Positions 2,804-30,028 of a stretch of DNA of 64,000 bases are shown piece after piece (positions within the stretch are counted from its first letter, which is position 1; each line of letters begins with the position of its first letter). The stretch is from Thermoanaerobacter wiegelii Rt8.B1 (GTDB lineage Bacteria; Bacillota; Thermoanaerobacteria; Thermoanaerobacterales; Thermoanaerobacteraceae): the NCBI RefSeq assembly GCF_000147695.2, contig NC_015958.1, positions 1,852,001 through 1,916,000 of the forward strand. The letters are read 5' to 3'. The notes below the pieces were generated by a model that made no database searches, was not told the DNA's origin, and worked only from the letters and a program-made list of their open reading frames with translations. Position numbers and translations under genes: made by a program.

Positions 2804-4567
2804 TTATTTCAACATATTTAAAACATGCTCTAATTCTTCACGTATTTTTTCAATATCTTTTAGCAATGTCTGATAACAAGCTTTTTCTCTTTCGAAGCTA
2901 TCTCTATCAAATTTATAATCCTTTATTGACTTAGCAAGTAGTTCTTTTATAGTATCATACATCGTTTGTAATTTAAAATTCATATCTTTTTCAAATTCAC
3001 TAAAACTTTCTTCAATCCTTGTTAATAAATCATAACGAATGCGACCTATGTTTCTGTCAACATCAATTGCTACTCTATCTAAAATCCTTTTTAAAATAAT
3101 TTTTCCAGCAACTTTTTTAGGCAAAAAATAGGTAAAATACACAGGGTCAATTTCCAATGCCCCAACATCATATCCTATCTTGTATGTAAATTTACTCTCC
3201 GCAGTAATGCCACCTGCACTTCTAAAATATTCCAGATTTATGCCAAACAATTCGTTTGCTACTGTTTTTACCTCATCAATGACTGCATTGAGCCGTAAAA
3301 GATAATTAGACAAAGCTTTACTATACTGTTCTTCAATGTCTCTTTCAATGCGACCTTTTAATTTTTCAAATTCCTCTATAATAGCTTTTTCAAGGTACTT
3401 TTCAAGCTCTTTTTTCTGATTAATACGGCTAAGGTCACGGATACTATGGTAATACTCTTTTATCTTTTCTGATACTCTGATACTGATAAACTGTTTATAT
3501 TCTTCCACCTTTTCATCAAAATTCTGTAAAATATTTCTCATATCGCCTTGAAACAATAGTGATATTTCTTTTTTGTTTTTTTCAACTTCTTTAATAAAGT
3601 TCTCAAATGCTTTTATATTAGACTCAAGACGCTCTAATGGAACTTGTCTCAATTTTATACTGCTTTCAAAAAAAGTTTGGCACATCGAAATAATTCTTTC
3701 AATGTTTTTGGCATAGCTTTCAAGCAATACTTTTTCTTTTTCTTTCATTAGAAAATTTTGCAAATCAATTTCAAGTTTTTGGACTCTACTCTTTTCAATC
3801 GCATTATCATCTTTTGATATTTTCCCTTCTAATGCTAATTTAGCAGAAATCGGATAAATATTAATGCTATCATTCTTTGCAATTTCTCTTACAATATTTT
3901 CATTAAAATTAATTATTTCCCTTAACTCCATTTCATTTACATAGTCAATTTTATTTAAAACAAAAAATATTTTATTGACATTTTCAGATACTTTAGACAA
4001 AAACTCTTTTTCCAGTTCACTTATAGGAGGATCTACTGAAAGCAAAAAAATCACAGCATCAGCTTTATTTATATAACTATATGCAACATCTGTATTATGT
4101 TTATAGACTGAACCAATTCCCGGTGTATCTATGATCACTACGTCATTACTTATAAACTCAAAAGGATATCCTATATGTATTTCCTTGACTCCTTTTATGT
4201 TTTTAGGATTGTTTTTTTCTGTGCAATACAAATCCAATTCTTTAATGTCAATATTTTCATTTCTGCCATCATTATATAGAACTTTCGCCCATATATCAGT
4301 GCTATATTTGATTTTTGTTATAACAGATGTTAAAGGGACAACACCTGTTGGAAGTATATCAGCTCCTAACATATAATTAGTAAATGTTGATTTTCCCCTT
4401 TTAAATTGACCTAATACCATAAGATAAAAAATATTATTGCAAAACTTATTTTTAACTTCTGAAACAGCTTCTCCTATTGCTTTAATATTGATATCTTTTG
4501 ATATTCTTTCTATTTTTTCAAATATCACATCTAGACTTTTTTTAATCTGGTCATATTGTTTCTTCAT
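2804..4567 (-). CDS. Dynamin-family GTPase
   Basis: A 587-residue bacterial dynamin-like protein. The GTPase domain is at about residues 45-260: G1 GQFKRGKS, a G2 threonine near PTGVVPLTS, G3 DTPGIG and G4 NKID. The rest is long helix and coiled coil (residues 280-440 and 510-585), as expected of dynamin stalk regions; a hydrophobic stretch near residues 460-490 could contact membrane. Bacterial dynamins remodel or protect membranes. The start is supported by AGGAGGTGAGGTT before the ATG. It is monocistronic behind a promoter and a fluoride riboswitch (4640-4772), implying induction by fluoride. I know of no characterised link between this family and fluoride, so its role there is open. Confidence 0.9.
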   Translation of the reverse strand: MKKQYDQIKKSLDVIFEKIERISKDINIKAIGEAVSEVKNKFCNNIFYLMVLGQFKRGKSTFTNYMLGADILPTGVVPLTSVITKIKYSTDIWAKVLYNDGRNENIDIKELDLYCTEKNNPKNIKGVKEIHIGYPFEFISNDVVIIDTPGIGSVYKHNTDVAYSYINKADAVIFLLSVDPPISELEKEFLSKVSENVNKIFFVLNKIDYVNEMELREIINFNENIVREIAKNDSINIYPISAKLALEGKISKDDNAIEKSRVQKLEIDLQNFLMKEKEKVLLESYAKNIERIISMCQTFFESSIKLRQVPLERLESNIKAFENFIKEVEKNKKEISLLFQGDMRNILQNFDEKVEEYKQFISIRVSEKIKEYYHSIRDLSRINQKKELEKYLEKAIIEEFEKLKGRIERDIEEQYSKALSNYLLRLNAVIDEVKTVANELFGINLEYFRSAGGITAESKFTYKIGYDVGALEIDPVYFTYFLPKKVAGKIILKRILDRVAIDVDRNIGRIRYDLLTRIEESFSEFEKDMNFKLQTMYDTIKELLAKSIKDYKFDRDSFEREKACYQTLLKDIEKIREELEHVLNMLK

Positions 4568-4639
4568 AACCTCACCTCCTAGCCACAGTATAATCGAAAT
4601 TCAGATATGGAGTGACATTTTTTACCTTACTATCACCCC

Positions 4640-4727
4640 CTAAAAAGCAAAATAGTTCCTACTGGTTTTTACACCAAGTAGGAACTATCAGCCTTTCGGC
4701 GGTTGAAGTGAGTTCCATCACTTTTTA
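4640..4727 (-). promoter_or_regulatory. Fluoride (crcB-type) riboswitch with terminator, upstream of dynamin GTPase
   Basis: Minus strand. The aptamer has P1 AGTGA/TCACT closing a loop with GGAAC, then an ACCGCCGAAAGGC hairpin, then TGATAGTTCCTAC. The loop GGAAC can pair with GTTCC to form the pseudoknot of the fluoride riboswitch class. The same GTTCCTAC strand is also one side of a 12-bp terminator hairpin (4652-4688) followed by TTTTGCTTTTT. Ligand binding would therefore block the terminator, making an ON switch. The copy at 19141-19208 keeps the architecture with compensatory changes (GAAGC/GCTTC). Class identified by recognition of the consensus, not by covariance search. Confidence 0.88.
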
Positions 4728-4743
4728 TACAATTGTCAATATC

Positions 4744-4772
4744 ATTATACCCAAAATGTAAAAACTTTGCAA
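4744..4772 (-). promoter_or_regulatory. Promoter of the fluoride riboswitch-dynamin transcript
   Basis: Minus-strand TTGCAA (4767-4772), 17-base spacer and TATAAT (4744-4749). The predicted start is about 10 bases before the riboswitch P1 stem, so the transcript begins almost directly with the aptamer. Confidence 0.75.
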
Positions 4773-5584: not shown

Positions 5585-5601
5585 CATTTTAACTATGCTT
5601 T

Positions 5602-6257: not shown

Positions 6258-6915
6258 ATCGAGTAGGAGCTGAATAATTATTTTATTCAGCGTCCTCTCA
6301 CACCACCGTACGTACCGTTCGGTATACGGCGGTTCATTAGGAATTATGTACAATTCTTAGTACATCATTTCTTCCATCCCTTGACGCCGATGATATACTA
6401 TGCACTTCCGTTGTCTTTTGAAATTCCCTTTCTCTATCCAACGGATAGCCTCTTTGTTGAGTTGTCTGCAGTCTTCGCATATCTCTCGAGTTCATAAGAT
6501 TTCCGAAACCTCCTAATGTTCAGTCCTTCCTTATCTATTCATGTCTAGATAAGTACTATGACCTCTGCTGACTTCTCAAGGTTCAGCCATACATCACTGT
6601 ATGGGTTGTCACTTCATATTTTACTTCCATGACTTATCCTTGAGACCTCCCCGGGTAAGAACGATTGCTTTCATCTCATATATCTGCCAGATTTACTGTA
6701 TGGGATTCGGGTAGTGTTGGACTTTGTTTTGATGTGCAAACTCATCCATCCCAATTCAGCCTCTTATCTGGTTCTTGTTCATCAGACCGAGATTTTGCCT
6801 TAAGCTTCCTTCAGATTCCACCTCACGATGGACACCCTTGCTCTCGGCTAGTGGTTCCCACTACCAAGCCCACAGCGGACTTTCACCGCCTAGCTATCGC
6901 CCATGCCGGGCGCAC
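6258..6915 (-). mobile_element. Group IIC intron, ORF-less, copy 1
   Basis: Read on the minus strand, the 5' end is GTGCGCCCGGCATGGGC (from 6915) and the 3' end is CTCCTACTCGAT (to 6258). Internal landmarks of bacterial group IIC ribozymes are present: AAGGGTGTCC, GAATCTGAAGGAAGC, GATGAGTTTGCA, ACAAAGTCC, CTTACCCGGGGAGGTCT, and domain V from GAACCGCCGTATACCGAAC to GTACGGTGGTGTGAGAGG. The 658 bases leave no room for a reverse transcriptase; only about 200 non-conserved bases lie where the ORF would be. The 5' end is 6 bases past the terminator stem of bpsA, the typical target of this class. It appears identical to the copy at 18481-19138. Probably splices but needs a maturase in trans to move. 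Confidence 0.92.
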
Positions 6916-19138: not shown

Positions 19139-19140
19139 AC

Positions 19141-29960: not shown

Positions 29961-30028
29961 GCTCAAGTCACAATCTCCATATATTTAATTCATATATTTA
30001 ATTATTATAATAACTAGGTTAACTAGCT

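Follow-up and report, generated by a model that had tools for sequence, protein, structure and literature searches.

Known defences against fluoride are export, pH homeostasis and the replacement of poisoned enzymes. In the passages covered of two published target accounts, fluoride riboswitches are reported in front of genes for Fluc/CLC-F exporters, Na+/H+ antiporters, PPase, HAD, enolase, formate hydrogen lyase and mutS (PMC11139923, PMC2864571), and no dynamin is listed there. In crcB-motif RNAs, as part of PMC2864571 describes them, aptamer, pseudoknot and overlapping terminator share one layout, and the ligand is expected to prevent termination. Among bacterial dynamins, DynA of Bacillus subtilis moves to damaged membrane, clusters there and delays rupture (PMC8844932), and proteins of the Cj-DLP1/DLP2 and LeoABC types are side-by-side pairs (PMC6104087). 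Here we describe a locus in which the two kinds of element are joined, on the minus strand of a 64,000-nucleotide stretch of the Thermoanaerobacter wiegelii Rt8.B1 genome (the window).

An earlier sequence-only reading of the window had described a promoter, an aptamer with P1 and a pseudoknot, an overlapping terminator stem and a single dynamin gene, and had proposed a covariance search. The RF01734 model matches positions 4731–4672 end to end (model 1–64) with a significant score of 47.7 bits against a gathering threshold of 34 (E = 4e-10 over the 64-kb window and 1.9e-12 over 301 bases), confirming the aptamer. Sequence and model alignment resolve the stems AGTG/CACT and GCC/GGC and a pseudoknot of six base pairs, in which all six bases of GGAACT (4716–4711) pair with AGTTCC (4686–4681). 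The terminator was likewise recovered by folding: an intrinsic terminator spans 4688–4642, its stem ATAGTTCCTACT/AGTAGGAACTAT (4688–4652; −22.2 kcal/mol, z −4.7) being followed by the T-rich tail TTTTGCTTTTT, and its 5′ arm captures the 3′ pseudoknot strand, so that the expression platform overlaps the aptamer. A simple terminator scan of the window does not list this stem, though folding shows it. Upstream, a consensus scan places a putative promoter, TTGCAA-17-TATAAT, at 4772–4744; as one of 20 consensus matches where 13.6 are expected it is weak alone, but its distance to the aptamer is correct. The element thus shares aptamer, pseudoknot and overlapping terminator with the ON-type terminating class of RF01734 as portrayed in part of PMC2864571, while the gene downstream, a dynamin, falls outside the reported targets in the passages covered.

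That gene (4567–2804) is preceded by the ribosome binding site AGGAGGTG (4580–4573) and encodes 587 amino acids with a single Dynamin_N domain (PF00350, 9.4e-34), which upholds the family identity claimed earlier. Alignment locates the G1 motif GQFKRGKST at residues 53–61 (4411–4385); G3 (DTPG) and G4 (NKID) are also present, as are two motifs found by comparison within the clade described below, TEKNNPKN at residues 116–123 (4222–4199) and the G3/switch II motif DTPGIGSVYKHNT at residues 147–159 (4129–4091). A membrane-facing tip is proposed from alignment alone at residues 466–500 (3172–3068), a partly hydrophobic stretch between the last long helices in which P483 is invariant. The AlphaFold2 model built from three sequences is mostly helical after the GTPase and too poor to use (pLDDT 41, pTM 0.28). 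The gene is under purifying selection, with dN/dS of 0.17 and 0.13 in comparison with relatives G004 and G021, respectively. It stands singly behind its switch, as the sequence-only reading had it with correct coordinates: no gene follows closely, and the next, encoding a DUF5320 protein (2653–2294), has its own promoter-like site (TTGACA-17-TATTAT, 2732–2704, 11/12).

No named family fits this protein closely. A PDB search with the clade profile retrieved Nostoc BDLP1 (2j68, 2w6d; 4e-47 for 2j68), the Cj-DLP1/DLP2 chains of 5owv (8e-34 and 4e-28), Mycobacterium IniA (6j72, 8.5e-31) and mitofusins. The alignment to BDLP1 (profile positions 22–437) covers the GTPase and the following helices and runs well past the GTPase, with the proposed tip lying outside it. 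BDLP1 likewise carries one GTPase domain per chain, but it has 695 residues rather than 587, reads DSPGLNDTEARN in 2j68 where the clade has DTPGxGSxxxHNT in switch II, and differs from the window protein in the fluoride-riboswitch linkage of the latter. DynA belongs to the same superfamily, and the function proposed here is modelled on its part in membrane stress, the nearest one studied by experiment (PMC8844932); DynA consists of two fused dynamins, however, and proteins of ~1200 aa were never riboswitch-linked in our sample. Membership in the DynA family is ruled out by the single Dynamin_N domain in 587 aa and by an NCBIfam DynA equivalog score of 75 bits, where the cut-off is 1600. The protein also matches the PADLOC LeoBC profile (5e-14), but a whole-genome search found it to be the only dynamin homologue of its host, which excludes a LeoABC or Cj-DLP pair. 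IniA, like the window protein a single dynamin-like GTPase, is drug-inducible and named as isoniazid-inducible; we know of no fluoride riboswitch associated with it.

We next give the distribution of this pairing in the phylum. A profile of the dynamins of the order, run against a sample of 398 genomes, found clade dynamins (E ≤ 1e-60) in 32 genomes from 21 genera. RF01734 was searched in these 32 genomes and, after an unbiased PF00350 search, in another 40 that carry other dynamins, 8 of the 45 control genomes being covered by a stricter riboswitch search only. Controls were mostly ~1200-aa double dynamins, each counting as two domains, and side-by-side pairs. For 33 of 39 clade domains, and for none of 98 others, a fluoride riboswitch lies on the same strand no more than 3 kb upstream of the Dynamin_N domain, with ~0.1 expected by chance (Fisher p 6e-26, uncorrected for relatedness and overstating the number of independent events because the linked genomes are related). 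The sequence-only reading had proposed a survey of other Thermoanaerobacter genomes and named absence of the linkage from all related genomes as refuting; the linkage is present in related genomes, and the pairing recurs in more than 20 genera in varied gene orders. The six remaining clade domains comprise three with a contig end upstream (G024, ~800 bp; G188, ~250 bp; G262, ~200 bp), one whose fluoride cluster has its switch at a distance of 7 kb (G191), one next to a divergent switch (G387) and one with no visible link (G409). Terminators are present at 27 of 28 linked switches, and in 24 of the 28 the stem starts 13–22 nt inside the aptamer 3′ end, the layout seen in the window. Later draws of genomes added a carrier that a riboswitch in the same orientation precedes by ~60 nt (G422) and a 148-aa fragment with a divergent riboswitch ~150 nt away (G414); a third draw yielded no new carriers. 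Viral contigs gave no relatives, and the plasmid records gave, among the matches listed, only distant dynamins of 20–32% identity. At the level of sequence, the claim that a fluoride riboswitch stands in front of the dynamin is supported.

The linked dynamins fall into one group of 43 rows with an SH-aLRT of 95 in a quick tree search in which long branches were flagged. The linked label requires 6 changes on this tree compared with 19 in shuffles, and 0 of 500 sets of shuffled labels were as clustered. Two motifs, [STA]ExxNPxN between G2 and G3 and DTPG(I/V)GSxxxHNT in switch II, occur together in all 40 linked or adjacent members, the window protein among them. Three rows of the group are unlinked, and these are without HNT; the unlinked rows outside it are without both motifs, and the complete pair is found in no unlinked row. 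As judged from these sequence comparisons, the proteins are a phylum-wide, fluoride-dedicated dynamin clade, whose two-motif signature lets members be recognised in sequence databases.

Taken together, we consider it probable that the window encodes a fluoride-inducible bacterial dynamin, one of a dedicated subfamily within the fluoride regulon of many Bacillota, most likely acting at the membrane. In the absence of fluoride, RNA polymerase would stop at the terminator (4688–4642); as cytoplasmic fluoride rises, Mg–F binding would stabilise aptamer and pseudoknot, which would withhold strand 4686–4681 from the terminator and let the dynamin be transcribed. Because the element is a canonical RF01734, fluoride control is the default expectation, and we infer induction of the gene by fluoride by analogy with the known switch family. 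Most likely the protein would act at the cell membrane without a dynamin partner, assembling with GTP on stressed membrane as known bacterial dynamins suggest. There it might preserve the seal or the order of the membrane as incoming HF dissipates the proton gradient, together with the antiporter, UspA and exporters that sister fluoride operons supply; such protection from HF or fluoride damage is only what we infer. According to passages of PMC11139923, HF, a weak acid, reduces the proton-motive force on entering the cell, and antiporters rank second among the gene classes under the fluoride switch. The dynamin of this regulon is most readily understood as a factor that protects the membrane. 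The sequence-only reading had likewise suggested that fluoride induces the protein, perhaps to repair or isolate damaged membrane.

In the stretches fetched around 40 clade loci, the recurring genes encode DUF6062 (18 loci), a CPA antiporter (17), HEAT-repeat proteins (12), UspA (12), two types of MFS transporter (11 and 6), a MutS-like pair (9), a family of 112 aa (6), CrcB (5), enolase (4) and a PolX-like protein (2); none of these was found at 12 control dynamin loci, for which the stretches were shorter. By our reading of gene maps, 19 of 37 linked members have the dynamin as the first gene after the switch; in the others its operon also contains DUF6062, Na+/H+ antiporter, UspA or MutS-like genes. 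The antiporter genes at 17 of 40 loci and the recurring order antiporter–UspA–dynamin would suit a membrane scaffold, in which the fluoride-induced dynamin organises or clusters the transporters of the regulon (antiporter, Fluc, MFS) without repairing membrane; many members, including that of the window, nevertheless stand alone behind their own switch with no transporter gene beside them, and we regard a scaffold as unlikely. DUF6062 lies between riboswitch and dynamin at L121, L123, L125, L154, L155 and L156, and directly so in several families, and is a candidate second fluoride-dedicated family; a literature search found no mention of it. In one family, genes for a MoxR-type AAA ATPase, a DUF58 protein and a DUF4129 protein come after that for the dynamin. 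Back-to-back pairs of divergent fluoride riboswitches, serving opposite operons from one intergenic region, were seen at L135 (G196), L146 (G359), L137 (G256) and L148 (G388).

Within the order, 6 of 24 genomes carry this dynamin, and all six copies are in fluoride clusters. It lies directly behind the switch in G000 and G004, behind tandem switches, an antiporter (Na_H_Exchanger, 4.5e-37) and UspA in G005, behind antiporter–UspA in G021, behind the MutS-like pair in G015 and just before a switched enolase in G017, where the contig is cut upstream. Comparison with G005 (L040) suggests how the single-gene form arose. Window positions 5592–4627 align to G005 through the first riboswitch and terminator, and positions 4616–4500 align to its dynamin leader and start; between the matched blocks G005 has 1.7 kb, containing the second riboswitch, antiporter and UspA, that is missing in the window, which retains a junction at 4626–4617. 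The window form would therefore be a reduced antiporter–UspA–dynamin operon produced by a 1.7-kb deletion, deletion being favoured over insertion because the same gene order also occurs in other genera. In G008 the antiporter and UspA are kept and the dynamin is lost, and the leader region matches over just 24 nt. The G005 dynamin itself has an in-frame stop near its N-terminus (L085, 3260–3114, minus strand) in an otherwise open frame, perhaps because it became a pseudogene recently, perhaps through an error in sequencing. Since 18 of the 24 genomes are without this dynamin, and in view of the loss in G008 and the stop in G005, it is a dispensable accessory gene. Tandem fluoride riboswitches ~110–130 nt apart precede the antiporter–UspA operon at L040 (G005), L048 (G008), L050 (G009) and L067 (G017).

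Fluoride might also act on the protein itself. It is conceivable, though quite unlikely, that the subfamily is adapted to fluoride, the altered switch II (invariant HNT after DTPGxGS) either letting GDP and metal fluoride hold an assembled, membrane-bound state or conferring resistance to that trap; if so, the ion that switches on the gene would also set the state of the protein. Very doubtful in our judgement is target compensation, in which fluoride, as GDP–metal–fluoride, poisons the dynamin GTPase and the switch makes more of it. Compensation of this kind has been proposed for enolase under fluoride riboswitches, in part of PMC11139923, and enolase is a neighbour in some clusters; dynamin-family GTPases do bind GDP and aluminium fluoride, for which a passage of PMC2862293 cites GBP1. 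The window protein, however, is the sole dynamin of its genome and is absent from most relatives, and so is no housekeeping target whose loss would need to be offset.

The presence of UspA, MutS-like, HEAT-repeat and DUF6062 genes in the clusters might instead point to a multi-stress island containing a general envelope-stress dynamin for which fluoride is only one inducer, a highly improbable reading given that about half of the linked members have the dynamin first behind a dedicated fluoride switch that carries its own terminator. A chance neighbourhood of functionally unrelated riboswitch and dynamin, in favour of which nothing was found, is contradicted by the control (33 of 39 against 0 of 98, 0.1 expected) and by recurrence in over 20 genera whose gene orders differ.

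Membrane protection under fluoride, the reading preferred here, would place a membrane-remodelling GTPase in the fluoride regulon of more than 20 genera and add a membrane arm that is absent from the reviews consulted. The same pairing in dozens of distantly related bacteria points to an undescribed membrane-level arm of fluoride defence. Riboswitch and dynamin are each of a known kind; their conserved union, together with the protein signature, is the new part. A literature search returned no co-mention of “fluoride riboswitch” and “dynamin”, within a scope that leaves outside the 2012 founding paper and all supplements, so that an earlier table may name a dynamin; co-mentions of “crcB” (as word start) and “dynamin” were unrelated, as far as their titles and abstracts go. 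The fluoride-dedicated dynamin subfamily appears to be undescribed. Little is known of what triggers bacterial dynamins physiologically, and sodium fluoride would give them a cheap and specific chemical inducer, which would make their function directly testable.

The host genome, a single contig of 2.785 Mb, has four fluoride riboswitches by RF01734 search. One precedes CrcB–CrcB and then an HD-type protein, HD-GYP-like by sequence inspection only; another precedes a pair of large MutS-like proteins, the second matching MutS_V (1.4e-25) and the first assigned by inspection. The fluoride-switched clusters L033 (G000 62539) and L074 (G021) include, as further genes, one for an HD-GYP-like protein behind CrcB–CrcB and one for a PolX-like protein behind MFS. 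A further host switch is the second riboswitch of the window (19217–19158, minus strand; 39.9 bits), which precedes an operon (18458–15869, minus strand) encoding DUF6062, a 112-aa protein without a Pfam match, a HEAT-repeat protein and an MFS transporter, a set also found in fluoride clusters of other genera.

Between this switch and its operon, right after the T-run of the terminator, sits a group II intron of ~660 nt (within 19217–18481, minus strand), which polymerase would be expected to reach only when the switch permits read-through. Insertion after a hairpin with a T-run is a habit of group IIC introns, and the copy at 19139–18481 comes after such a hairpin. G004 and G009 have the empty site, where window position 19139 is joined to 18481. 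Two group II introns of the window, at 6832–6258 and 19055–18481 on the minus strand, have identical Rfam scores, and a third, diverged one lies at 30011–29703 on the same strand.
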